A stretch of DNA of 64,000 nt, taken from positions 1 through 64,000 of the forward strand of contig JAFDZQ010000017.1 of NCBI GenBank assembly GCA_018266895.1, written 5' to 3'. How positions within the stretch are numbered: position 1 is the stretch's first letter; each line of letters starts with the position of its first letter. Source of the stretch: Bacteroidota bacterium (GTDB taxonomy: Bacteria > Bacteroidota > Ignavibacteria > Tepidaquicellales > Tepidaquicellaceae). Position numbers and translations under genes: made by a program. The notes below the pieces were generated by a model. It had not been told where the DNA came from, searched no databases, and saw only the letters and a list, made by a program, of their open reading frames with translations. Shown one piece after another: positions 3,714 to 37,539 of the stretch.

Positions 3714-3774
3714 TGTAAGAATAAAAGAATAAATTTTATTTAAATGAATAACCTTGCCATAAGCAGCTGTGTAT

Positions 3775-3852
3775 CTTTATTAATTATTTTGAAGTTTCTG
3801 ATAAAAAACTTTTTACTTTGTCATCCCCGAAATCTTTTGTCGGGGATCCATT
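3775..3852 (+). repeat. Dispersed hairpin repeat, CCCCGA...TCGGGG
   Basis: A hairpin (CCCCGA, loop, TCGGGG at about 3825-3845) with AT-rich flank; almost the same 75 bases recur at 5998-6076. Related palindromes with CCCCGC/GCGGGG or CCCGC/GCGGG arms occur at 4720-4750, 28,837-28,937 and 32,311-32,362. Intergenic, no coding potential. Confidence 0.8.
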
Positions 3853-3913
3853 AATTTCTTTTAGCTGATTAAACTTCCGCCAGGTGCAGGCTGTCTGAAA
3901 ACAAAGGAATAAA

Positions 3914-5048: not shown

Positions 5049-5972
5049 TTGTCACACGAATTAATATTATGGATAGGTTTTAATGTCTTCATAATACTGA
5101 TGCTTGCATTGGATCTCGGAGTATTTCAGAGAAATCCGCACACAATTAAAGTGAAGGAAGCTCTGATATGGAGCGCAATCTGGGTAATACTGGCTCTGAT
5201 ATTCAATGTATTTATTTACTATGACATGGGCGAGCAGAAAGCTCTTGAGTTTTTCACCGGTTACCTGCTTGAAAGATCATTAAGCGTTGATAACATTTTT
5301 GTATTTGTACTTCTGTTTTCATATTTCAAAGTTCCCGCACTGTATCAGCATAAAGTTTTATTCTGGGGAGTGCTCGGGGCTCTGATACTCCGCGCAATAC
5401 TCATAGGTATCGGTGCGCTTATGGTAGCAAAGTTCGGATGGATAATATATATATTCGGCGGATTTCTGCTGTTCACAGGATTCAAGATGGCATTTCAGAC
5501 TGACAAGGAAATAGAGCCGGAGAATAATATAATTATACGAACATTTAAAAAACTTTTTCCGGTCACACACGAATATCATGACGGAAAGTTCATAGTGACG
5601 ATCAATAAAAAGAAATTCGCAACTCCCCTGCTGGTTGTGCTTGTGGCAGTTGAGTTCGCAGATCTTGTCTTTGCGTTTGATTCAATACCGGCAATATTCG
5701 CAGTAACAACTGACCCTTTCATCATCTACACTTCAAATATTTTTGCAATACTCGGTTTAAGGACATTGTATTTTGCAATTGCGAGTATAATGCATAAATT
5801 CCATTACCTCAAGATAGGACTTTCTCTCATTCTGATATTTATCGGATTTAAAATGCTGATAATTGATCTTTACAAAATCCCGATAGTATTTTCATTAAGC
5901 ATAATAGCTCTTATTCTTGTCGCTTCGATTATATATTCCCTTGCAAAGCCGCTTAAAAAAGGAGAGAAATGA
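5049..5972 (+). CDS. TerC family integral membrane protein
   Basis: Inner-membrane protein of the TerC/Alx family, associated with tellurite resistance or Mn(II) export. It has about eight or nine hydrophobic segments across 307 residues. Acidic residues inside membrane segments are diagnostic: LDLGVF near residue 21, SVDNIF near 79 and FADLVFAFDSIPA near 200. The start is TTG, chosen because the protein aligns from MSHELILW and no earlier ATG exists; there is no Shine-Dalgarno. Length is typical for the Alx-like subgroup. Whether it exports manganese here is inferred from the family only. Confidence 0.9.
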   Translation: MSHELILWIGFNVFIILMLALDLGVFQRNPHTIKVKEALIWSAIWVILALIFNVFIYYDMGEQKALEFFTGYLLERSLSVDNIFVFVLLFSYFKVPALYQHKVLFWGVLGALILRAILIGIGALMVAKFGWIIYIFGGFLLFTGFKMAFQTDKEIEPENNIIIRTFKKLFPVTHEYHDGKFIVTINKKKFATPLLVVLVAVEFADLVFAFDSIPAIFAVTTDPFIIYTSNIFAILGLRTLYFAIASIMHKFHYLKIGLSLILIFIGFKMLIIDLYKIPIVFSLSIIALILVASIIYSLAKPLKKGEK

Positions 5973-6695
5973 ACAACTTCTCCTCAAGCAGAGATGTATT
6001 TTAATTAATTATTTAAAACTTTTGATATAAACTTTTTACACTTTGTCATCCCCGAAATCTTTTGTCGGGGATCCATTCATATTTTGTAGTACAAATTAGT
6101 GTGAATTCGTGGCGGGAAAAACATTGCCACTAATTTCAATAATTAACACGAATTTGAAAAATTTGTTATTCATTAAAATTACTGCGAATTCGTGAAATTC
6201 GTGGCGGAAATAAATCTTCAATGATCAAAGCGGTCATCAAAGTAAAATTAGAATTTTCAATTATGAACATATATCCAGTGCTGTCCAAATCGTTTCGGGT
6301 TAATTAAACAAAGTTAGTTATGAATACAATTTCAAACAGAATTCCCCGGACATTTAAAACTAAACCAGAAGTTTAATCATTTTTATATTTAAAAAACAAA
6401 ACAAAGCTTTTCTCTCACAGATGGCACAGATTTTCACAGATACATACACACTTATACTCTTACCCGAGTTTTCAAAAATAGTAAAAAATATGTAGAGTCT
6501 TATCTGTGTTAATCTGTGTAATCTGTGAGAAACAAGACATTTGATTTACAATATAGTTTTAGTTTCTTGAACAAATATTCAACGTTTTGGACGGATGTGA
6601 CATGTATCATTCCGTATTCAAATAAATAACATTGAATATATTTGAAGCATAAATTAAATTGACAAAACTATTTTAAAATACTCAAACAAATCATT
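5973..6695. repeat. Repeat-rich spacer: three dispersed repeat families
   Basis: No gene in 723 bases. From left: a second copy of the CCCCGA/TCGGGG element (5998-6076); a copy of the GCCACTAATT family with tail GATCAAAGCGGTCATC (about 6085-6240); and an imperfect inverted repeat whose arms are runs of CACAGAT (6410-6445) and ATCTGTG (6498-6533). All are palindromic and could form hairpins. The last 150 bases before the next gene show nothing clear. Confidence 0.75.
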
Positions 6696-7365: not shown

Positions 7366-7470
7366 GTGAACTTTGTTAAAAAAAATTTTTAAGGAAAGAA
7401 TTTATTCATACAATTACCCAGGAAACATTTCAGAACTGAGATCAGCTATGTAAAGATTATGAATAAATAA

Positions 7471-7766
7471 GTTTTGTAACAGCAGAGATGAACCTGTAAT
7501 CTTTCTGACAGGATTAAGTATTTACAAACCTTTAAGCTTCATAGAATGTGAGTTTAATAGCGGAGCCGTGGAGAGAGTGTGTTTGTTTTCTGATTTAAAA
7601 TATTTATTAAGTTTCTTAATAAATTCGCTGATGTGATACATTATCATTTAAAATTTGTAATAAAACTAATGCTAACTGTATTAGATAGGAGAATTTTGAC
7701 ATAATACAAATTTTACCTTTAATTAACCGGTTTGGCGAAATGTGTCAATGCAAACATTGAGCGCAA
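7471..7766 (+). repeat. Long direct repeat, copy A, upstream of VOC gene
   Basis: About 290 bases that recur as copy B (8211-8476) on the other side of the small VOC gene. Shared blocks are TTTCTGACAGGA, CTTCATAGAATGTGAGTTTA, GCGGAGCCGTGGAGAGAGT, and a right end that is nearly identical over about 28 bases (from TTACCTTTAATTAACCGG to TTTGGCGAAA). The right end holds the CCGGTTTGGCG motif of attC-like arms and ends in ACATTGAGCGC at the position of a right core. Confidence 0.8.
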
Positions 7767-8192: not shown

Positions 8193-8210
8193 AAAACCAT
8201 CGAACAACAA

Positions 8211-8476
8211 AAAGTTTTATGGCATCAGTAATGATCCGGTAATTTTTCTGACAGGACAGATAATCATTAGAACTTTAAACTTCATAGAATGTGAGTTTAT
8301 TGGCGGAGCCGTGGAGAGAGTATAATTAGAAACATAGATAAATTTAGTCAGAGTATTATATAACTTTTAGAATATCCAACAAACTTTAAATTGTTAGATA
8401 GTAAAATTTTGACTTAATAAGTATTTTTTACCTTTAATTAACCGGTTTGGCGAAAAGCGTCAATGCAGACGTTATA
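8211..8476 (+). repeat. Long direct repeat, copy B, ending in an attC-like right core
   Basis: Second copy of the 7471-7766 repeat. Its right end runs into ACGTTATATGGC (core GTTATATGGC at 8471-8480), immediately before the GNAT gene. The core is the reverse complement, at 9 of 10 positions, of the sequence just after that gene (GACATATAAC, 8972-8981), as expected for the two ends of one cassette. Confidence 0.75.
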
Positions 8477-11704: not shown

Positions 11705-11869
11705 ATTCGGTTCAAATTCACCCTTTCATTGGTGACAAAATTTCTTTTTAATTTCAAAGAAAGCCATAACCTGGACGCTGGTGGCAGAGTGTTTGTGGCA
11801 TAAAGCCCGACTGTAGCAAGTCAGCAAAACGTTCGCTGTAACTTTTAAAACCTTAATTCTTATATTGTT

Positions 11870-11936
11870 CCCGCTTAGTCTCCCGCATTGCTTTTATTTT
11901 AAATTAACAAAATATCTTGACGCGGGGACTCAGCGG
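11870..11936 (+). repeat. REP-like palindrome 1
   Basis: Left arm CCCGCTTAGTCTCCCGC (11870-11886) and right arm GCGGGGACTCAGCGG (11922-11936) are near-perfect complements separated by an AT-rich loop. The following ...AACTGACATTA is shared with the copies at 12,041-12,078 and 14,944-14,975. Confidence 0.75.
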
Positions 11937-11978
11937 ATATAACTGACATTAACGAAATAGAATGTTAAAATTCTTGTT

Positions 11979-12343
11979 CCCGCTGCCTGCCCTGTGGGAG
12001 TCTTTCGAATAGCATATATTATAAATCAACAAAATATATTGACGAAGGGACTCAGCGGGCGAACTGACATTAGCGAAGTATTATCATAAAAATTATAACT
12101 GAAAAATTTGTGAGACAGAAACTAAATTATATACATAAGAATCCTGTATCAGGGAAATGGAAACTTGTTGAGCACTACCTTGATTATAAATATTCAAGTG
12201 CGGGGTTCTATGATTCAGGGGAAAAGGCTAATTGTAAATTATATAATTATGCTGAGCTGATATCCACTGATTCCCCGCATCAAAATTTTTTGTTGCTTTA
12301 AAAATGTAACAATGCGGGAGACTCCCACAGGGCAGGCAGCGGG
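11979..12343 (+). mobile_element. REP-bounded element with perfect 25-bp inverted ends
   Basis: Positions 11979-12003 (CCCGCTGCCTGCCCTGTGGG plus 5 bases) are the exact reverse complement of 12319-12343. Inside lie a second REP right arm (GGGACTCAGCGGGCGAACTG, about 12047-12066) and the C-terminal piece of a Y1-type transposase. The size (365 bp) and structure fit a decayed REP-associated transposase unit. Confidence 0.7.
12074..12301 (+). pseudogene. C-terminal fragment of REP-associated (Y1/IS200-like) transposase
   Basis: The frame is open from 12074; the recognisable protein runs from about 12,101 (EKFVRQKLNYIHKNPV) to the stop at 12,301. KLNYIHKNPVSGKWKLVEH followed by YLDYKYSSAGFYD is the C-terminal signature of the RAYT / Transposase_17 family, single-strand transposases of the HUH class. 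The catalytic HUH and the bulk of the domain are missing, so it cannot be active. It sits between REP palindromes, as RAYT genes usually do. Confidence 0.75.
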
Positions 12344-12560
12344 GACAGAAACAACACATTTGCGATAAGCTGTTGCTATTTCGCAGCCGTACTTCGCAGA
12401 CCCGCCTGCATTTCAATCCGGACGGGCAGGCAGTTTTGCGGTTAAAGAAAGTGCAGTTCTCCGAATAAGCATTAGTGCTCAGAAACCCCCGAACGCAAAG
12501 CCCGAAAACGTTAGGTGCAAAGTTTTGATCTATCTAATAATAATTAAATTTAAAACTTAA

Positions 12561-14756
<2,196 letters not shown>

Positions 14757-14781
14757 AAGTGGATTGACAAATTAACACTGA

Positions 14782-14890
14782 TGCTAACTGCGGTTTGGCT
14801 TAATGGCGGGTTCAGTTGTAGATTGAACGGTAGTATTCTGATAAACATTTGTGCCTGGTTGACAGTGAAGTACTTCTAAGTCCGCCACTT
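14782..14890 (+). repeat. attC-like site after katG, cut by a REP element
   Basis: Left core ATGCTAAC (14781-14788), left arm TGCGGTTTGGCTTAATGGCG (14789-14808), variable middle, and the first part of the right arm (AGTCCGCCACTT, 14879-14890). The arm then stops and a REP palindrome begins; no right core follows. The core is partly complementary (about 7 of 10) to the core before katG (GTTAGGTGCA). Confidence 0.65.
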
Positions 14891-14893
14891 TGT

Positions 14894-14975
14894 CCCCGCT
14901 GAGTCTCCCGCACTGCATATATTTTAAAATAACGAAGTCTTTTGACGCGGGTACTCAGCGGGCGAACTGACATTA
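14894..14975 (+). repeat. REP-like palindrome 4
   Basis: Left arm CCCGCTGAGTCTCCCGC (14895-14911) pairs with GCGGGTACTCAGCGGG (14947-14962) across an AT-rich loop. The element ends in CGAACTGACATTA like the copies near 12 kb. It directly replaces the right end of the attC-like site on its left and abuts the recombinase fragment on its right. Confidence 0.75.
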
Positions 14976-15244
14976 TTTGTTCGAAGGTCAAGACGAAGGT
15001 GTTTACAGTTCGAGAAGCATACAGGCAATAATAAAAAACTCCAGTATAAAGTCAGGGATCACAAAAAAGAAGCATACATTCTCTGAGACATTCATTTGCT
15101 ACACATTTATTAGAAGGCGGAACAGATATTCTGTCAATAAAGAAACTGCCCGGACATAAAAGTTTGCGGACAACCATGATATACACTCACGTAAGCAACG
15201 AACATATCAACAAAATACAATCGCCGATTGACAAGATCATTTAA
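14974..15244 (+). pseudogene. Tyrosine recombinase C-terminal remnant, frameshifted
   Basis: Frame 1 from 14,974 reads YLFEGQDEGVYSSRSIQ..., then [18 protein letters not shown]. Shifting frame near 15,080 continues as [20 protein letters not shown], then [19 protein letters not shown]..., to TAA at 15,242. Together this is the last 90 residues of a phage/XerD/integron-type recombinase with catalytic His-x-x-Arg (HT..LRH), His (PGHKS) and Tyr (MIYTH) still recognisable. The N-terminal two-thirds is absent and one frameshift separates the halves. It lies inside the attC-like array, between a REP palindrome and a right-end repeat, so it may be a relic of the enzyme that built the array or of an unrelated element. 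Confidence 0.85.
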
Positions 15245-15249
15245 ATTTA

Positions 15250-15334
15250 CGCAACCGCCACTTGCGCAAGCCGCAAACTGCTTTGCATATATATGCAGGT
15301 ATAAGTTTGTTGCGGGTATTTAATCGTTAGCGGC
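15250..15334 (+). repeat. Right-end repeat, second type (GTTTGTTGCGGGTA), with core GTTAGCGGC
   Basis: CCGCAAAC (15272-15279) pairs with GTTTGTTGCGG around the perfect palindrome TGCATATATATGCA. Then come TTGCGGGTATTTAATC and core GTTAGCGGC (15326-15334). The same end occurs at 37,436-37,514 and, more diverged, at 20,255-20,298. The core matches the reverse complement of the left core after the serine hydrolase (GCAGCTAAC, 8 of 9). Confidence 0.65.
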
Positions 15335-15397
15335 GATTTTACAGAACAAAGCAACGACAGAGAAATAGTAGTCTCATTAAAAAAGCAATAAAGAAAT

Positions 15398-16693
15398 ATG
15401 AAGAGATTTATCAAATACACAATCGCAACTTTAATTTTGACCATTGGTTGGGCTATCATTGTTTTAAATGGACTTTTAAATGGCTGGTGGCACAACCCAA
15501 TTACAAAAAACAAAGACACAGAATCATTTATTACCGAAGTCAAAGAGACTACTCAAAAAGAATTTGTAGGAAACTTTGCAATGGCAATTATGAAGGATGG
15601 CAAAGTTGATAAAGAGATTTTCATTTCTTACAACAAACCAATTGACAGGAACACAATTTTTCAAGTTTCTTCTCTGTCAAAATTTGTATCAGCAGTAGGG
15701 ATAATGAAATTAACTGAATCAGGAAAAATTAATTTAGATACTCCTGTCAGTCGTTATCTAAAAAGATGGCAATTGCCACCAAGTGAATTTAATAATGAGC
15801 AGGTGACAGTTCGAAGGTTGTTAAGTCACACTGCTGGTTTAACTGATGGACTTGGCTATAGCGGTTTTGAAAACCGAGACTCTGTACAAACTATTGAATC
15901 TTCACTTACTAAGGCAAAAGATGCGGACAAGGGAATTAGCGGAGAAGTACGAGTAGGTGTAGAACCAAATTCCACCTGGAAATACTCAGGCGGAGGTTTT
16001 ACGCTTTTACAATTAATAGTAGAAGAGACAAGCGGACAGTCTTTTAATGAATTTATGACTTCCAATTTGTTCACTCCCTTAAACATGACCAGTAGTACCT
16101 ACATATTAAACGATTCATTAAAAAACAGGCTATGTGAGTTCTACAATTCAGATAAAACAACTGCTCCTCATTATTACTACACTTCATTAGCAGCGACATC
16201 ACTTTACACTTCATTAGCAGATTTAGAAACATTTTTTCAAATTTTTCTTAAAGGAAAAGACGGTGAACAAATTGGCAGGGGACAATTAGTGCCAGAAAGT
16301 TTGAAGTTAATGAGAGAAGGACATTGGGACATGATGGGTGAGAAAATTTATGGTTTAGGATGTATGCTTTACATAGATATTGAAAACAATGAGGATATTT
16401 TTGGTCATGATGGTAAAAGCACACCTCCAATTAATACTGCAATAAGAATTAATCCAGTTACAGGTGACGGAATAATAGTTTTGGAAACAGGTAATCCGGA
16501 TTTGGCTACAAGAATTGCCAGTGATTGGGTGTATTTACATACTGGAAAAGTAGATACTTTGCTTTTTAGTATGCTGTTAGGAAAGACAATAAAAATTGCG
16601 TTAGTCGGAATACTTTTAATTATACTTTTTCTTATTGGAGTAGCAAGATGGCGTAAGAAAAGAAAAACTGCAGCTAACAAGGGTTTGGTGTAA
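15398..16693 (+). CDS. Membrane-anchored serine hydrolase (beta-lactamase class C / PBP4 fold)
   Basis: 431-residue member of the beta-lactamase-related serine hydrolases (PF00144), which include D-aminopeptidases, esterases and penicillin-binding proteins. An N-terminal membrane segment (residues about 8-28) anchors it. The nucleophile motif SxxK is Ser92-Lys95 (SSLSKF), the second motif is KYSGGGF (Tyr near 195) and the third is GHDG near 340. A C-terminal membrane helix (about 393-415) followed by KKRKTAAN gives a second anchor. The last codons overlap the attC-like left core and arm, so the C-terminus partly encodes the site. Confidence 0.88.
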   Translation: MKRFIKYTIATLILTIGWAIIVLNGLLNGWWHNPITKNKDTESFITEVKETTQKEFVGNFAMAIMKDGKVDKEIFISYNKPIDRNTIFQVSSLSKFVSAVGIMKLTESGKINLDTPVSRYLKRWQLPPSEFNNEQVTVRRLLSHTAGLTDGLGYSGFENRDSVQTIESSLTKAKDADKGISGEVRVGVEPNSTWKYSGGGFTLLQLIVEETSGQSFNEFMTSNLFTPLNMTSSTYILNDSLKNRLCEFYNSDKTTAPHYYYTSLAATSLYTSLADLETFFQIFLKGKDGEQIGRGQLVPESLKLMREGHWDMMGEKIYGLGCMLYIDIENNEDIFGHDGKSTPPINTAIRINPVTGDGIIVLETGNPDLATRIASDWVYLHTGKVDTLLFSMLLGKTIKIALVGILLIILFLIGVARWRKKRKTAANKGLV

Positions 16694-16802
16694 TGGGGGA
16701 AGACGCGCTGAATTTGAACATTTGTGCTTCTGTCATCATTCGTGGTTTATTAAACTTTTGTGCTTCTAAACCCCCACTTCGTCAAGCCCCAAACCGTTAT
16801 CG
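16670..16802 (+). repeat. attC-like site after serine hydrolase gene
   Basis: Left core GCAGCTAAC (16670-16678), left arm GGGTTTGGTGTAATGGGGG (16681-16699), middle with two copies of TTTGTGCTTCT, right arm CCCCCACTTCGTCAAGCCCC (16771-16790) plus AAACC, and right core GTTATCG (16796-16802). The arms pair over GGGTTTGG..TGGGGG / CCCCCA..CCAAACC. One of the best-preserved sites. Confidence 0.8.
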
Positions 16803-16844
16803 GTCATTGTAGAACGACATTCATAACATAAAATTATTACAGAA

Positions 16845-17261
16845 ATGGAAAAAATATTTGAGACATACAAACCGATTGGATTTCATACCATGACAATATA
16901 CCTATTTGTTGACAATCCAAAAGAATTAATTGATTTTTTAAAAAAAGCCTTTTTTGCTATAGAAATCAATCGTTCAATTAATCCGGCAAATAATGACATT
17001 GCAAATTGTATTTTGCAAATTGGTGACACTTGTTTTATGATTAGTCAAGCAAGAGAACAGTTTTTAAATATGAGAACTGCATTGTATTTGTTTGTTGACA
17101 ATGTTGATGATATGCACAAAAGAGCATTAGAAAATGGGGCTAAATCCGAATTTGAGCCAGAAAATATGCCTTATGATGACAGGCAATCTGGAATAATTGA
17201 CCCAAGTGGAAATTATTGGTGGATTTCTAAACGGCTAAAACAAAAAGGTTATCAAGAATGA
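16845..17261 (+). CDS. VOC family protein (PhnB/YdcF-like, glyoxalase fold)
   Basis: 138-residue VOC protein of the bleomycin-resistance / PhnB-like group. It starts with THMTIYLFVDNPKELIDFLKKAF-like topology and ends GIIDPSGNYWWISKRL, the usual last strand (DPxGN.W). The central FVDNVDDMHKRALENGAK is the second-module helix. No catalytic role can be read; many such proteins bind drugs or act on amino sugars. One-gene unit between two strong attC-like sites. Confidence 0.82.
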   Translation: MEKIFETYKPIGFHTMTIYLFVDNPKELIDFLKKAFFAIEINRSINPANNDIANCILQIGDTCFMISQAREQFLNMRTALYLFVDNVDDMHKRALENGAKSEFEPENMPYDDRQSGIIDPSGNYWWISKRLKQKGYQE

Positions 17262-17293
17262 AACACACATTATCTCAAGAAGAAAAACAACGA

Positions 17294-17426
17294 ACCGCAA
17301 ACAGCACCTACAAGAAATTGGCGGTTCAGGGGTTAAATAAAGCTTTGTGCTTTGTATCAAGTTTTGTGGTGGCAGACAGTTTTGTGCTTCGAAATCGCCA
17401 ACTTCTTGTAGCTGTAACCGTTAGCG
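17294..17426 (+). repeat. attC-like site after VOC gene
   Basis: Left core ACCGCAAAC (17294-17302), left arm GCACCTACAAGAAATTGGCG (17304-17323), right arm CGCCAACTTCTTGTAGCTG (17396-17414), and right core GTTAGCG (17420-17426). The arms pair over about 18 of 20 positions, the most obvious hairpin of the array. The middle repeats TTTTGTG and TTTGTGCTT. Confidence 0.85.
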
Positions 17427-17463
17427 GCAACTCGTGACGACCGGTCAGAAATTAAACACTAAA

Positions 17464-18597
17464 ATGAGGAACTTAAAAATAATTTTGACACAGCTGACAA
17501 TTTCTGCTTTACTTTTTACCTGTTTGATTTCCTGCAAAGGACAAGTTCAATCCGACAATTCAAATAATAAAGAGGAAAGGCATTCTTCAACGGCTCAAAC
17601 ATCAAAGCAAGTTAACGCATTCACTGCAACAACTGTAAATGCCATTGACAAGAACATACGTAGTATTTTTCAAGATAAAAATGGCACGTATTGGTTTGGC
17701 ACAAATGGAGCAGGCGTATATCGTTACGATAAAAAATTGTTGACTCAATTTACGGTAAAAGACGGACTTGCAGACAATCAGGTGCAGAGCATTCAGGAAG
17801 ATGATTTGGGAAACATTTGGTTCGGAACAGGAGGATTTGGTGTTAGTAAATTTGACGGTAAAAATCTCATGACATTAACCAATACCAACAATATAAAAAT
17901 AACTAACGGATCTGATAACGACTGGAAATCAAAACCCGGCGACCTGTGGTTTTACGCCGGTGGTGGAGTGTTTAGATACAGCAATCAGGGACTTGTCTAT
18001 TTGGAGTTTAACCCATCAAGTGTAAATTCTAAAAAACAGAACAAATCTCCGTTTAGTCTTAGCCGATATAGTGTATATTGCATTTTGAAAGACAAGAAAG
18101 GAAATGTATGGTTTGGCACGCAAGCTCAGGGCGTATGTCATTATGACGGAATATCACTTACCTGGTTTGCAGATAAAGGACTTGCAGGACCAGCGGTTCT
18201 CAGTATTTTTGAAGACAGCAAAGGCAGCCTTTGGTTCGGAAATAATGGTTCAGGTCTGTTCCGATATGACGGCAATACTTTAATAAATTTTACCGAAGAA
18301 AAAGGACTGGGCAATAAAGACTTTAGAGCCACCGGAAAATCTGACTCAGAGACTTTGGCTCGTGTATATTCCATAAACGAGGACATAAAAGGAAATATCT
18401 GGATTGGAACAGTTGCAGTAGGAGTTTGGAAATATGATGGTAACGTTTTGACTAATTATACCACCAAAGACGGACTTACGAGCAATGCAGTAAATACAAT
18501 TTATAAGGACAATAACGGAGAACTTTGGTTTGGGACAGACGGCAATGGCATTTGCAAATTCAACGGAACGACATTCACCGAGTTTATAATAGAATAA
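17464..18597 (+). CDS. Lipoprotein of two-component-regulator propeller repeats
   Basis: Beta-propeller protein built from about seven repeats resembling IFQDKNGTYWFGTNGAGVYR, i.e. the periplasmic sensor module (Reg_prop) of Bacteroidota hybrid two-component systems. Here it is free-standing: there is no histidine kinase, transmembrane or DNA-binding domain. ATG at 17,464 is preferred over the upstream GTG at 17,434 because it places a lipoprotein signal (MRNLKIILTQ... ending LISC) at the N-terminus. Role unknown; perhaps ligand binding at the cell surface. It begins 36 bases after an attC-like core. Confidence 0.88.
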   Translation: MRNLKIILTQLTISALLFTCLISCKGQVQSDNSNNKEERHSSTAQTSKQVNAFTATTVNAIDKNIRSIFQDKNGTYWFGTNGAGVYRYDKKLLTQFTVKDGLADNQVQSIQEDDLGNIWFGTGGFGVSKFDGKNLMTLTNTNNIKITNGSDNDWKSKPGDLWFYAGGGVFRYSNQGLVYLEFNPSSVNSKKQNKSPFSLSRYSVYCILKDKKGNVWFGTQAQGVCHYDGISLTWFADKGLAGPAVLSIFEDSKGSLWFGNNGSGLFRYDGNTLINFTEEKGLGNKDFRATGKSDSETLARVYSINEDIKGNIWIGTVAVGVWKYDGNVLTNYTTKDGLTSNAVNTIYKDNNGELWFGTDGNGICKFNGTTFTEFIIE

Positions 18598-18607
18598 ACA
18601 GCGAGCA

Positions 18608-18742
18608 GCAGTAAACCATGGTTTTGCATCAGTGCAGATTTAGTACTGAGTTTAACATTTTTACTTTCAATTAACTTTTATAGTAAACTTAAACTTTGTA
18701 CTTTTTATTCAACACCGTATGAAAAGCCAAAAAACCTTGGCG
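18608..18742 (+). repeat. attC-like site after propeller gene (diverged)
   Basis: Left core GCAGTAAAC (18608-18616), left arm CATGGTTTTGCATCAGTGCAG region, AT-rich middle, right arm ending AAAGCCAAAAAACC and right core CTTGGCGGTC (18736-18745). The TCATTGTA after the core is identical to that after the core at 16,796. Confidence 0.55.
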
Positions 18743-18796
18743 GTCATTGTAAAAAGAAATTAATTAACCTTAAACAAAAATAATAAATAGAACTAT

Positions 18797-19372
18797 ATGA
18801 GAAAAATAATTTCATTTATGCACATATCGCTTGACGGTTTTGTATCTGGACTGAACGGAGAAATGGACTGGATAAAAGTTGATGAAGAAATTTTTGATTA
18901 TGCCGGTAAGCGGATAAGCGAGGGCGACACTGCAATATATGGCAGAGTAACTTACCAGATGATGGAAAATTACTGGCCAACCGCAGGAGACAAGCCGGCA
19001 GCGACCAGGCACGACATTGAACATTCTAAGTGGTATAGCAAAGTTCATAAAGTTGTTTTATCAAAAACATTGAAAGACGCGGGTTTGACTAACACAAAAA
19101 TTATTAGCGACAACCTTCCGGACAGAATAAATGAAATAAAACAACAGTCAGGTAATGACATCCTGCTTTTTGGCAGCCCGACAGCAACACATTCACTTAT
19201 TCAGCTTAACTTAATTGACGGCTTCTGGCTATTTGTTAATCCAGTTATTCTTGGACGAGGTATTCCATTGTTTGCAGACATAAAAGACAAAATAAAACTA
19301 AAACTATTGCCTACTACCCGACAATTTACCTGCGGGGTAACTGAGCTGAATTACATAGTGGACAGACAATAA
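18797..19372 (+). CDS. Dihydrofolate reductase family protein (RibD C-terminal-like)
   Basis: 191-residue protein of the RibD_C / YwjB group of the DHFR fold, NADPH-dependent reductases of mostly unknown substrate. The N-terminus RKIISFMHISLDGFVSG is diagnostic, followed by GEMDWI, AIYGRVTYQMMENYWP, and the nucleotide-binding ILLFGSPTATHSLIQLNLIDG. It is not a canonical folate DHFR. A relative with the same start pattern (RKIIILSMISLDG) is at 26,764. One-gene unit. Confidence 0.88.
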   Translation: MRKIISFMHISLDGFVSGLNGEMDWIKVDEEIFDYAGKRISEGDTAIYGRVTYQMMENYWPTAGDKPAATRHDIEHSKWYSKVHKVVLSKTLKDAGLTNTKIISDNLPDRINEIKQQSGNDILLFGSPTATHSLIQLNLIDGFWLFVNPVILGRGIPLFADIKDKIKLKLLPTTRQFTCGVTELNYIVDRQ

Positions 19373-19412
19373 CTTTCGCAGCGAAAAGACGCGACAACGA
19401 AAGACAAGAGTT

Positions 19413-19455
19413 ACTGCTAACAACATGATTAAGAAATAGCGGCGATGAGTAAACT
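19413..19455 (+). repeat. attC-like left half only
   Basis: Left core ACTGCTAAC (19413-19421), partly complementary (6 of 9) to the core before the reductase gene, followed by a diverged arm (AGCGGCGATGAG). No convincing right arm or right core is found before the next gene at 19,565. Confidence 0.4.
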
Positions 19456-19564
19456 TAAATTTTCGTGCATTTAAATTACTTTTACAGCGGCTGAAAGTGA
19501 AGTGTCACTAACAGAGAAAGATACTCACATAATATTTATTAAAAAAAATTAACTTAAGAAAACG

Positions 19565-20233
19565 ATGTATAACTTTTCATACTTCAAAGAAAAAGACAAG
19601 CAAACAATTTTGGATTTCATAGAAGAAAATCCATTTGCCTTTATGACAGGGAGTTACTTATCGGGTACACAGGTTGCAACACAGATACCTGTATTACCCG
19701 AAGAAAGAAATGGTGAACTGTATCTGCAAGGACACATTATGCGAAACACCGACCATCATAAAGCTTTCATAGAAAATCCGAACGCATTGATTGTGTTCAC
19801 AGGACCGAGTTGTTATGTAAGTGCATCCTGGTACAGCAACCCGCAAATTGGTTCCACCTGGAATTACATGAGTGTTCATATTACCGGACAGGTCAATTTT
19901 ATGACGAATGATGAACTGGCAGCGTTTATGCGAAAATTGACTTTAAAATTTGAAAAAGGTAACACAGAATCGCCAACATTTTTTGACAATCTTCCGGAAC
20001 ATTTTTTGAGTAAGATGATGCCGGCAATTACCGGTTTTGAAATTAAAGCAGAGAAATTAGAAAATGTATTTAAACTCAGCCAGAACCGGGATGAGAAAAG
20101 TTATTTAAACATTATTTCAAAAATTGAAGAACAAGGTGGGAATAGCGCTTTAATTGCATCAGAAATGAAAAAAAGAAAAGCGGAATTATTTCCTGCCGGT
20201 GTTGAATGGGATGCTACAAAATTTGACTCGTGA
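19565..20233 (+). CDS. FMN-binding PaiB-type protein
   Basis: 222-residue protein of the FMN-binding negative transcriptional regulator family (PaiB-like, flavin-reductase-like split barrel). Recognised by the PFAFMTGSYLSGTQVATQIP start, LQGHIMRNTDHHKAF and SCYVSASWYSNPQIGSTWNYMSVHITG blocks, and the C-terminal ITGFEIKAEKLENVFKLSQNR. Despite the name, a DNA-binding role is not established for most members; flavin or haem binding is more likely. One-gene unit. Confidence 0.88.
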   Translation: MYNFSYFKEKDKQTILDFIEENPFAFMTGSYLSGTQVATQIPVLPEERNGELYLQGHIMRNTDHHKAFIENPNALIVFTGPSCYVSASWYSNPQIGSTWNYMSVHITGQVNFMTNDELAAFMRKLTLKFEKGNTESPTFFDNLPEHFLSKMMPAITGFEIKAEKLENVFKLSQNRDEKSYLNIISKIEEQGGNSALIASEMKKRKAELFPAGVEWDATKFDS

Positions 20234-20235
20234 AG

Positions 20236-20298
20236 AAAAAAGTATAACGAACCGTGAACACAGGTTTGTAGTGTATTGCGTATAAATAATCGTTATCG
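20236..20298 (+). repeat. Right-end repeat, second type, with core GTTATCG
   Basis: GGTTTGTAGTGTATTGCGTA, then TAAATAATC and core GTTATCGGCAA (20292-20302), followed by ATTTCAAAACGACA. It is a diverged relative of the ends at 15,300 and 37,480. The core is the reverse complement of CTGCCGATAAC after the next gene, 10 of 11 positions. Confidence 0.65.
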
Positions 20299-20370
20299 GC
20301 AATTTCAAAACGACACCGCATAAATGAAAATAAAATTTTACATTGTAACACTTTTTAGATTTTTTCAAAT

Positions 20371-21510
20371 TTGATTTTTGGACAAAATAAATATCAAAAA
20401 GACTTTAACGAATTTTGGAACGACCTAAACTCTAATTATGCATATTTAAAAGAACAAAATATTGATTTGAAAAAAGTAAAAGAAATTTATCAGCCCAAAA
20501 CCGAAAATATTTCTACAAATTCCGAATTTATACAGTTTTTGGAAAGCATTTTAAATGAACTTTACAACGGACACTCTTCTCTAAATACAAATCTGAATTC
20601 CTCAAACAGATTAATTCCGTCTGGACAAGATATTTTTGTTGAAAAAATTAACAACAAATTTATTATTACAGATTTACGAAAAGATTTTGGGGCTGAAAAA
20701 GGCGGACTAAGAGTAAGAATGGAAATTACAAAATTCAACGGAAAACCAATTGAAGAACAACTTAACAAGTTTCTTCCAAAATTTACGCAAAATCATAATT
20801 CAAAAATGTATCAATTTGCATTGGATATGCTTTTTGCAGGAACACATAACACAAAAAGAGAAATTTCTGTTTTAGAAAACGGAACCGGGAAAAAATATTT
20901 TCCTGATGAATTTAAGCATACTCAATCAAATTCTTTACTTAAAAGCAAAATTATCAACAAAAATACTGCTTGCCTAAAAATTAATAACTCACTAGGAAAC
21001 AATCAATTAATTTTAGATTTTGACAAAACACTTGACAATTTTATAAACTATAAAAATCTAGTAATTGACCTTACAGAAACTCCAAGCGGAGGAAATACAA
21101 CAGTTGCAAGAGCAATTATGGGAAGATTTATTGACAAAACTTTGCCGTATCAAAGACACGAATTTGACGAACAATACGAAACGAAAAGAGTATGGACAGA
21201 ATTTGTAACGCCAAGAAAAACTCAGTTTAAAGGAAAAGTTTATATTTTAGTCGGGCATTGGACAGGAAGTATGGGAGAAGGAATTGCAATCGGTTTTGAC
21301 GGAATGAAAAGAGCGAAAATTATCGGAACAAAAATGGCGGGATTGCTTGGAGCAATTTCTAACTTCCAAATGACCGAAACAAAAATTGGTTATCAATTTC
21401 CAACGGAAAGATTATATCAAACAAATGGTAAACCGAGGGAAGATTTTTTGCCGAAAATTTTGACAAAAAATACTGAAGAAACTTATAAAAAAATGTCAGA
21501 AATAAAATGA
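20371..21510 (+). CDS. S41 family peptidase (C-terminal-processing-protease-like), signal peptide frameshifted
   Basis: 379-residue open frame with a PDZ-like turn (GGLRVRMEITKFNGKPIEEQL) and the S41 core: LVIDLTETPSGGNTTVARAI, VYILVGHWTGSMGEGIAIGFDGMKRAKIIG. The nucleophile is the Ser of TGSMGEG. The frame starts at TTG 20,371 with no signal, but the ATG at 20,324 in another frame encodes MKIKFYIVTLFRFF, and adding one T to the six-T run at 20,360-20,365 joins them into a normal signal peptide ending LIFGQ. So the export signal is out of frame by one base (decay, phase variation or sequence error). Confidence 0.8.
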   Translation: MIFGQNKYQKDFNEFWNDLNSNYAYLKEQNIDLKKVKEIYQPKTENISTNSEFIQFLESILNELYNGHSSLNTNLNSSNRLIPSGQDIFVEKINNKFIITDLRKDFGAEKGGLRVRMEITKFNGKPIEEQLNKFLPKFTQNHNSKMYQFALDMLFAGTHNTKREISVLENGTGKKYFPDEFKHTQSNSLLKSKIINKNTACLKINNSLGNNQLILDFDKTLDNFINYKNLVIDLTETPSGGNTTVARAIMGRFIDKTLPYQRHEFDEQYETKRVWTEFVTPRKTQFKGKVYILVGHWTGSMGEGIAIGFDGMKRAKIIGTKMAGLLGAISNFQMTETKIGYQFPTERLYQTNGKPREDFLPKILTKNTEETYKKMSEIK

Positions 21511-21521
21511 AAATAAAGAAA

Positions 21522-21658
21522 CTGCCGATAACTAGGATTTTGCGTCAGGCGGGCTGAAGTGCAAAATTCAAGTTTTGTACTTCTATTGAAATTTGTATAT
21601 TAGCTCAACGTTTCGGCTTCGAAAGCCCGCCCGAACACCAAGCCCCAAACCGTTAGCA
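21522..21658 (+). repeat. attC-like site after S41 peptidase gene
   Basis: Left core CTGCCGATAAC (21522-21532), left arm GGATTTTGCGTCAGGCGGGC (21535-21554), right arm AGCCCGCCCGAACACCAAGC (21624-21643) then CCCAAACC, and right core GTTAGCACC (21652-21660). GGCGGGCT pairs perfectly with AGCCCGCC. The left core is the 10-of-11 reverse complement of the core before the same gene. Confidence 0.82.
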
Positions 21659-21707
21659 CCAATTTTGGGACGACACTGTAACTAAATTACAACAAATAAT
21701 AAATAGA

Positions 21708-22637
21708 ATGAAACCAATCATCACATTGACAATTTTTGTATTAGCAACAATGTTTGCATACGGACAAAGCATTTATACCAAGACTTTTGGTAGCAGTAAA
21801 GACAATCCAATTATCTTTCTTCACGGTGGACCTGGCTACAATTGTGTAAACTTTGAAGCTACAACTGCACAACAACTTGCTGACAAAGGGTTCTTTGTAA
21901 TAGTTTACGACAGACGCGGAGAAGGGCGAAGCAATAACACAAATGCAAAGTTTACTTTCAAAGAAACTTTTGACGACTTAAACGCCATTTATCAAAAATA
22001 CAGTCTGACAAAAGCAACTTTAATCGGACACAGTTTTGGCGGGGTTATTGCGACACTTTTTGCTGAAACTAATCCTAATAAAGTTCAATCAATTGTTCTT
22101 GTCGGAGCACCTGTTTCTTTGCAAGCCACTTTCAAAAATATTCTCTCTAAATCAAAAAGTATTTATCAAACAAAAAAAGATAGCATAAACTTAAAAAACA
22201 TTTCTATGCTTGAAAATATGGATACAGCAAGTATTGAATATAGTTCTTATTGTTTTGGACACGCTATGCAAAACGGTTTTTATACTCCCATAAATCCATC
22301 GGCAGAAGCTAAAAATATTTATACAAAATTCAAAACTGATACTTTATTGACAAAATACGCTTCTCAAATGTCTTATGAAGCACCACAAGGTTTTTGGAAA
22401 AATGAAAAATATACAACTATCGTCCTTACAAAGAATTTGCAATCCTTACAAAAGCAGAATATAAGAATCTATGGACTTTATGGTAAAGACGATGGACTTT
22501 ACTCTGCGCAACAAGTTAACGACCTACAAGACCTAATTGGTTCAAGCAACATAAAATACTTTGACAACTGTTCCCACAATGTTTTCATTGACCAACAAAC
22601 ACAATTTATTGACGCTATAAATACTTGGACAAAATAA
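21708..22637 (+). CDS. Exported alpha/beta hydrolase (prolyl iminopeptidase-like)
   Basis: 309-residue alpha/beta hydrolase with a signal peptide (MKPIITLTIFVLATMFAYGQ). The oxyanion motif HGGPG (near residue 38) is typical of the proline iminopeptidase branch. The nucleophile elbow is GHSFGG (Ser near 108), the acid lies after IYGLYGKDDGLYSA, and the His is in FDNCSHNVF near the C-terminus. The triad looks complete. Substrate unknown. One-gene unit between good attC-like sites whose ends match each other (GTTAGCACC before, GGCGCTAAT after). Confidence 0.88.
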   Translation: MKPIITLTIFVLATMFAYGQSIYTKTFGSSKDNPIIFLHGGPGYNCVNFEATTAQQLADKGFFVIVYDRRGEGRSNNTNAKFTFKETFDDLNAIYQKYSLTKATLIGHSFGGVIATLFAETNPNKVQSIVLVGAPVSLQATFKNILSKSKSIYQTKKDSINLKNISMLENMDTASIEYSSYCFGHAMQNGFYTPINPSAEAKNIYTKFKTDTLLTKYASQMSYEAPQGFWKNEKYTTIVLTKNLQSLQKQNIRIYGLYGKDDGLYSAQQVNDLQDLIGSSNIKYFDNCSHNVFIDQQTQFIDAINTWTK

Positions 22638-22642
22638 AAACT

Positions 22643-22784
22643 GGCGCTAATATCGGTTTGGCAATATGGCAGCTGAAGTGCTACTTTGAAACTTGTGTGC
22701 AAGGTTCAACAGTAGTAATTCTATTGAACTTTTATGCTAAAAATCCGCCACATTCATGTTCCCGCTGAGTCTGAACCGTTGTTG
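22643..22784 (+). repeat. attC-like site after alpha/beta hydrolase, with REP fragment inserted
   Basis: Left core GGCGCTAAT (22643-22651), left arm ATCGGTTTGGCAATATGGC then AGCTGAAGTG, right arm beginning TCCGCCACATTC (22744-22755), then TTCCCGCTGAGTCT (22759-22772), which matches the left arm of the REP palindromes near 12 and 14.9 kb, then GAACC and right core GTTGTTG (22778-22784). Confidence 0.7.
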
Positions 22785-26510: not shown

Positions 26511-26763
26511 AATGGCAACGATAGTGATTAAGTTTTGTGTAAGCGGGGCTTGACAAACAAATTTCACCAAGAGTCTGGTTGCTGCCTGCCCGCAATTAAT
26601 GTTGATTTGTATTTATGTCTCAAACGGGGTAACTAATAAGTTCGTATTATTTGTGTTCTGAATTTTTAATATTAATTAGCAAACTTTTTGGAACCCTCAG
26701 GGCAGGCACCATCAACGGCGGTAGTACCGGAATTAAAATAACTCAAGTCAAAAACATTTTATT

Positions 26764-37435: not shown

Positions 37436-37514
37436 CACTTTCGCAAATCCGCAAATTACTTATTAATTTCATGAAGGTTTTTGTAAGTTTGTTGCGGGTA
37501 ATTAATCCTTATCC
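37436..37514 (+). repeat. Right-end repeat, second type, with core CTTATCCGG
   Basis: TTTCGCAAATCCGCAAAT, a loop with ATGAAGG, TAAGTTTGTTGCGGGTAATT then AATC and core CTTATCCGG (37508-37516). Shares the GTAAGTTTGTTGCGGGTA block with 15,301-15,318 (TAAGTTTGTTGCGGGTA). The core is the reverse complement, 7 of 9, of CAGGATAAT at the end of the next gene. Confidence 0.65.
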
Positions 37515-37539
37515 GGTATTTTAAAACGGCATCTCGAAA

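Follow-up and report, generated by a model that had tools for sequence, protein, structure and literature searches.

The window, that is, the whole 64-kb stretch of DNA that was analysed, carries a cassette array with attC-like sites of about 134 nt in its intergenic DNA, the remains of an array-head tyrosine recombinase, and a short element built of REP units around the end of a RAYT gene. The order at the element is REP(+)-REP(+)-RAYT C-terminus-REP(-), and a complete attC-like site follows directly on its right (Table 1).

Table 1. Features of the RAYT/REP element and of the surrounding array (positions in the window; R1 is the covariance model of the attC-like sites)
Feature	Position	Strand	Remarks
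Left attC-like sequence, short and weak	11763..11837	+	no R1 match; shuffle p 0.003-0.03
REP unit 1 (type A) with AACTGACATTA tail	11867..11970	+	hairpin fold z -4.8; direct repeat D1/D2 with REP unit 2
REP unit 2, variant with 13-nt insert in 5' arm, plus tail; left 25-bp arm 11979-12003	11975..12091	+	
RAYT C-terminal remnant, from about codon 129 of the C48 relative	12086..12301	+	YIHKNP kept, HuH part absent
REP unit 3; right 25-bp arm 12319-12343; ends GGGGACAG	12260..12348	-	
Complete attC-like site abutting REP unit 3	12349..12520	+	aligns with L003 and L020 sites; R1 28 bits over 12394-12518
30-nt palindrome in loop side of right site	12402..12431	.	missing from aligned L003 site
attC-like site, 3' arm cut by REP	14781..14890	+	R1 39 bits
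REP type A copy between katG and recombinase remnant	14891..14976	+	
Array-head tyrosine recombinase, C-terminal remnant, frameshifted	14977..15241	+	tblastn to L135 recombinase 87% over residues 226-285; TIGR02249 72.5 bits
attI-like stretch after recombinase stop; GTT at 15326	15245..15345	+	position and ending as in L135, L136, L165
Intact attC-like site	16671..16804	+	R1 115.5 bits
Intact attC-like site	17295..17428	+	R1 111.3 bits
attC-like site	18609..18744	+	R1 51.9 bits
Intact attC-like site	21525..21660	+	R1 103 bits
attC-like site truncated at model position 112, then REP 5' arm	22663..22754	+	R1 56.2 bits, model 20-112
REP 5' arm GTTCCCGCTGAGTC, partner arm absent	22757..22771	+	

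The inverted repeat and the REP units

The original prediction of perfect 25-bp inverted ends was borne out: positions 12319-12343 are the exact reverse complement of 11979-12003, and no other exact inverted repeat in the window reaches 18 bp. The exact pair sits within an imperfect one of greater length (11975-12058 and 12264-12347; 84 nt, 76%), and a second related inverted pair (64 nt, 81%) matches the leftmost REP with the right end of the element. Each 25-bp arm is the 5' arm of a REP hairpin, and the two hairpins lie in opposite orientation around the RAYT C-terminus. Elsewhere in the genome the arm recurs exactly in contig C118 (39/39 bases), and related forms are present in contig C46 and, in a genome of the same genus (G001), in contigs C113 and C76.

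A REP palindrome had also been placed outside the left end, and REP unit 1 does contain one (11869-11944; DNA fold -14 kcal/mol, z -4.8). This unit and the arm-bearing REP unit 2 are tandem copies, 122 nt apart. The 13-nt insert in the 5' arm makes REP units 2 and 3 fold poorly (z -1.7 and -1.5, respectively), and its presence in both units creates the 25-bp arms. By their predicted folds, the arm-bearing units are not good hairpins today. This poor folding could be taken to favor the idea that the inverted repeat arose by chance or has nothing to do with a mobile element. However, only about 1.7e-5 exact 25-bp inverted pairs are expected in the window at its base composition, and the recurrence of the arm in C118, with its related forms in C46 and the G001 contigs, refutes a chance origin, to which we assign a negligible probability.

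The RAYT remnant and its relatives

The segment between REP units 2 and 3 was said to hold the C-terminal part of a RAYT-like transposase, and this assignment is supported by an open frame (12074-12298), by the YIHKNP motif, and by relatives at 63-68%. In the same genome, the remnant matches the C-termini of the RAYTs on contigs C102 (63%), C75 (68%), C17 (53%), and C48 (90% over 21 residues). The Y1 motif, Y...NP, is present as YIHKNP in the remnant and in its relatives. The HuH motif, which reads NHIH or NHLH in the C48 and C102 copies, has been deleted from the window copy. Because the part bearing HuH is gone, the window element cannot move by itself. A missing catalytic tyrosine in these RAYTs was suspected and then dropped, since class 2 RAYT proteins, according to PMC6006769, carry it in Y...NP, which is present here. 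A Pfam search of the window remnant returned no families; with the NCBIfam model REP_Tyr_transpos the C102 and C48 proteins reach 57 and 53 bits, both below the cut-off of 80, and PF01797 gives the C48 RAYT 18.6 bits against a cut-off of 23.

Contig C48 terminates within its RAYT gene, which is preceded by a REP, and contig C75 starts within the end of a RAYT gene, which is followed by a REP in the other orientation. Together the two give REP-RAYT-REP with the orientations seen in the window, and the window element aligns to both at the DNA level. C48 and C75, though unjoined in the assembly, would thus show the parent architecture of the window element. The RAYT on C102 is apparently complete and is flanked on either side by REPs of a type of its own.

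The nearest known system is the RAYT/TnpA-REP system (REPtron), with subclass 2.6, equivalent to RAYT group 5 (Quentin et al. 2018, PMC6006769), as the putative nearest subclass; the NCBIfam scores lie below the cut-off. The points of likeness are the Y...NP motif (YIHKNP here; YIH[QN]NP in its table), HuH as NH[ILV]H in the intact relatives, a Bacteroidota-type host group, and flanking palindromes that recur in the genome. Unlike that subclass, the window copy lacks HuH, and its REPs have an AT-rich loop of about 33 nt and include a subfamily with the 13-nt insert in one arm. The palindromes of subclass 2.6 are themselves termed atypical ("atypical secondary structures") in PMC6006769. The element also resembles a TIRtron, or TIRYT (Di Nocera et al. 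2013, PMC3733652), in having inverted terminal repeats around a RAYT-like gene and in its outer end, GGGGACAG (12341-12348), which fits the GGGGWSAS motif given in that paper; unlike a TIRtron, it has ends that are not only TIRs but also hairpin REPs. Most TIRYTs are assigned by Quentin et al. (PMC6006769) to subclass 2.1, with extra C-terminal domains.

The best explanation of the feature, with a probability of roughly 85%, is a dead, internally deleted RAYT/REP element (REPtron/TIRtron-like) parked in an integron-like cassette array. From the known chemistry of the family, an intact RAYT would have cut and joined the REP hairpins as single-stranded DNA, bringing the element in, and the middle of the element would have been lost after its arrival. 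The relic may have survived since intergenic cassette DNA is dispensable, and not since attC-like hairpins are a target. Taken alone, the window relic is an ordinary RAYT/REP element and matters little.

attC-like sites beside the element

An attC-like half had been predicted on each side of the element. On the right there is indeed an attC-like sequence, but it is a whole site: its R1 match is weak (12394-12518, 28 bits), and its alignment to an intact site of the related genome G011 is clear. A palindrome similar to the one in its loop side lies in a similar context in contig C113 of G001 (L023 about 2130-2175). The left flank, 11763-11837, has no R1 match at E<=0.05, and its similarity to intact sites is weak (8 sites, shuffle p 0.003-0.03). 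An element inside a single split attC-like site was rejected, since the right site is complete alone and the left is unrecognised by the model. The right end of the element meets the R'' end of the right site within a few bases (12348/12349), and by the alignments the element adjoins a complete site, at whose edge REP unit 3 ends. Around the element no target duplication was detected (local score 37 versus a maximum of 48 among 200 shuffles). Nor was an empty site found: pepF, the preceding gene, is without an ortholog in 30 genomes (apart from the copy in the window, the best match has 27% identity), and a search of 40 genomes with the flank DNA gave no intact orthologous intergenic region.

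The position of the relic, with a weak site on its left and a complete one on its right, could also mean that it is a gene cassette captured by the recombinase. In favor of such a capture, its reading frame has the direction of the array, and its end is followed by the right site. However, the left site is missed by the model and is followed by a REP, not by a cassette start, and RAYT cargo is present in no other array among the 98 sources described below. In addition, the bases before the right-site AAC are a REP end (GGGGACAGAAA, also in C118); because they belong to the REP, the start/R'' complementarity typical of array cassettes cannot be shown for the relic. Capture as a cassette is accordingly considered improbable, and the parked, deleted RAYT/REP element is retained as the preferred reading.

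The cassette array

The covariance model R1 was built from 10 seeds and describes the intergenic attC-like sites of the window, which are about 134 nt long. At E<=0.01 it gives 18 matches in this genome, of which 7 lie in the window, 10 on contig C50, and 1 on C81. Over 18 chosen sources there are 88 matches at E<=0.05, and when these are aligned, compensatory changes preserve the pairing: 328 cells have changed on both sides of a pair versus a shuffled mean of 124.7 (0/500 shuffles as high) and 49-69 in slid controls, in an alignment that was fitted to the structure and so leans towards it.

As in an integron, genes of the array are co-oriented and separated by imperfect hairpins, R'' and R' are complementary within each cassette, and an identical cassette can be found behind different sites with the junction G|TTA. 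The latter is seen in genome G010, where one 233-bp cassette lies behind several different sites, always joined at CG|TTATGCG. When the six bases at the start of a cassette are compared with the complement of the R'' flank in the cassette's own site, on average 4.39/6 agree over 51 consecutive site pairs; the permuted mean is 2.84, and 2000 permutations reach at most 3.35. Integron cassettes show such complementarity. The insertion footprints lie at CG|TTA and may reflect recombination of attI x attC. The consensus of the integron right box is GTTRRRY, and the array departs from it: its right boxes are mostly GTTATGC, GTTAGCG, and GTTATCG.

The end of the attI-like stretch in the window is repeated as D6 at 20268-20307 and 37484-37523. 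A second palindrome type, at 26560-26710, adjoins an attC-like 5' arm in the array and is also present in the 3' flank of the RAYT on C17 (L021 1189-1344).

Do attC-like hairpins attract RAYT elements?

The original prediction held that attC-like hairpins could attract the element, and a corresponding alternative is that the RAYT recognises single-strand attC-like hairpins besides its own REP hairpins and inserted in or beside one here. Several observations lend this some appeal. One end of the element abuts a site (12348/12349), and REPs inside long palindromes are known from other bacteria, according to PMC3733652. Moreover, two other REP arms in the window, at 14891 and 22757, break attC-like sites, both in the 3' arm, and both begin a few bases past CCGCCAC of the inner stem; against this alternative, the two breakpoints differ by about 3 nt.

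Surveys in both directions argue against such recognition. A search for RAYTs in 40 genomes gave matches in 23, and 30 loci were fetched and scanned with R1 at E<=1; no attC-like site was found within about 1.5 kb of the RAYT at any of the 30 loci (0 R1 matches in 92,055 bases). Reciprocally, three RAYTs were used in tblastn against 98 sources chosen for arrays or array recombinase (1,126,566 bases), and RAYT sequence was present in only one, the window itself, and in none of the remaining 97. The genome's second array, on C50 with ten sites, has no CCGCTGAGTC match, CCGCTGAGTC being the start of the typical REP hairpin.

The REP at 14891 also has a counterpart. In the window the order is katG, cut site, REP, recombinase remnant; in genome G013, related REPs form a cluster after katG and before the recombinase gene, and the katG-recombinase spacer has no attC-like site by R1. 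katG is near recombinase remnants in G011 as well. Since G013 has its REP cluster between katG and the recombinase gene, the position of the 14891 REP may be inherited and not the result of targeting; the REP may be old in its place. The broken sites at 14891 and 22757 keep a weak form of the attraction idea alive, and the fact that 3 of the 6 REP-A places of the genome lie in one array leaves room for some attraction or local spread. Overall, targeting of attC-like sites by the RAYT is unlikely, and we give the recognition of attC-like hairpins only a slim chance. Thus, of the initial interpretation, the REP/RAYT element and its place in a cassette array stand, and the split site and the attraction by hairpins are not supported. 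The open-access full-text literature yielded no report of RAYT/REP in attC sites.

The array recombinase

None of 25 genomes (this one and relatives) reaches the integron-integrase cut-off (TIGR02249). The best matches are in G013, G010, and G012, and each lies just upstream of an array, in the same orientation. With the integron integrase model (cut-off 265), the proteins of G013 and G010 reach 214 and 208 bits, and with recomb_XerA_Arch (site-specific tyrosine recombinase/integron integrase; cut-off 220) they reach 228 and 231 bits. The G013 recombinase is about 43 residues shorter than V. cholerae IntI4 and matches it on both sides of a gap, where query residues 188-207 face IntI4 185-247; compared with IntI4, the characteristic IntI insertion is absent. 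After the recombinase stop, the closest relatives have a stretch ending in TATTTAATYGTTA or similar, which is a putative attI. Relative to known integrons, the array therefore differs in the short recombinase with its sub-threshold score, in a recombinase gene that runs in array orientation with an attI-like stretch after its stop codon, and in its right boxes.

The extra domain of IntI is regarded as essential for integron function (PMC8138268). According to the same paper, the insertion is not fully conserved in its integron-like subgroup, and for this reason a protein without the insertion is not new by itself. Complete canonical integrons are reported in Chlorobi, Ignavibacteriae, and Salinibacter (PMC9024848), so that integrons as such are known in the host group. 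In the open-access full-text literature, no insertion-less integrase with attC arrays was found for Bacteroidota.

A scan of genome contigs covered 161 recombinase relatives, from Ignavibacteria, Bacteroidota, and others, of which 80 were kept. In these 80 loci R1 gives 89 matches at E<=0.01; 86 are downstream of the gene and on its strand, and 3 (L209, L210, L229) are on the other strand. At least one downstream match is present at 20/80 loci, and at 17/45 of those with at least 1.5 kb downstream; 22/80 end no more than 300 bases past the gene. Most loci of the wider family have no site visible to R1, and their sites either differ or are absent.

It is probable, though appreciably less firm than the identity of the relic, that the array is a working integron type of Ignavibacteria/Bacteroidota, with an array-oriented recombinase that lacks the IntI insertion, has attI behind its stop, and recombines hairpins of about 134 nt, and that REP/RAYT elements erode such arrays. 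The array seems to be a little-described kind of integron and is the part worth following. If this is true, cassette capture does not need the insertion held essential for IntI. An integron-like system with a recombinase of Xer size would allow tests of the origin of integrons from Xer-type recombinases and of the need for the extra IntI domain in using folded attC sites.

Integron-like arrays with sites of about 134 nt and a co-oriented, insertion-less recombinase are seen at 14781-22754 in the window, in L135, L136, and L137, and in L151-L230. The G011 array holds two C-terminal remnants of the recombinase (residues 217-285; L138 13346-13552 and 7104-7310), each followed by an attI-like stretch.

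REP copies and long target duplications

In the typical REP hairpin of this genome, CCGCTGAGTC[T]CCCGC and GCGGGGACTCAGCGG enclose an AT-rich loop, and the 14891-14976 copy is nearly of this form (z -4.8). The genome has 18 occurrences of CCGCTGAGTC, versus 0 of the reversed control pattern, and, read by context, 15 of the 18 occurrences are REPs and 3 (C68, C92, C128) are not. A GTAG-type foot, GT[AG]G, was seen in none of the REP sequences read. The six REP-A places are C26, C118, C48/C75, and three in the window, so that the half that fall in the window array exceed the array's share of the genome.

Some RAYT/REP insertions are accompanied by long direct duplications. The left flank of the C48 element (L018 812-1085) is repeated after the C75 REP (L029 315-588) over about 273 bp, and both copies abut REPs. 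The REP in C26 (L033 around 1400-1690) lies between two copies of the start of a sigma-factor gene, roughly 90-105 bp long, of which 87 bases were aligned and the full extent was read by eye. In the 30 RAYT loci, apparent duplications were found in two, L106 (61 bp, 1284-1344/2017-2077) and L104 (57 bp, 929-985/2071-2127, with one copy 44 nt from its REP); L095 is ambiguous. Of the other repeats in these loci, most are RAYT ends or REPs, and at several loci there are none. Elements of the IS200/IS605 family make no larger target duplications (PMC2817692), and the 57-273-bp duplications that accompany some RAYT/REP insertions depart from what is usual for Y1 elements, for which they are unexpected. 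No long RAYT/REP target duplications were found described in the open-access full-text literature. Such duplications would constrain how REPs spread, and, if the reading of the array is true, the relic shows that REP/RAYT elements, sometimes duplicating 57-273 bp of target, erode integron-like arrays.

Three further observations concern repeats. In G013, dense alternating REP hairpins lie between katG and the recombinase gene (L135 10080-11000). On C118 (L017 4281-4740), two REPs enclose about 105 bp that copy the duplicated sigma-factor start of C26 (L033), and this composite looks as if it had moved. Upstream of the array in the window, dispersed intergenic repeats, 76-79% identical, pair 3742-3864 with 5967-6089 and 7466-7578 with 8209-8321.
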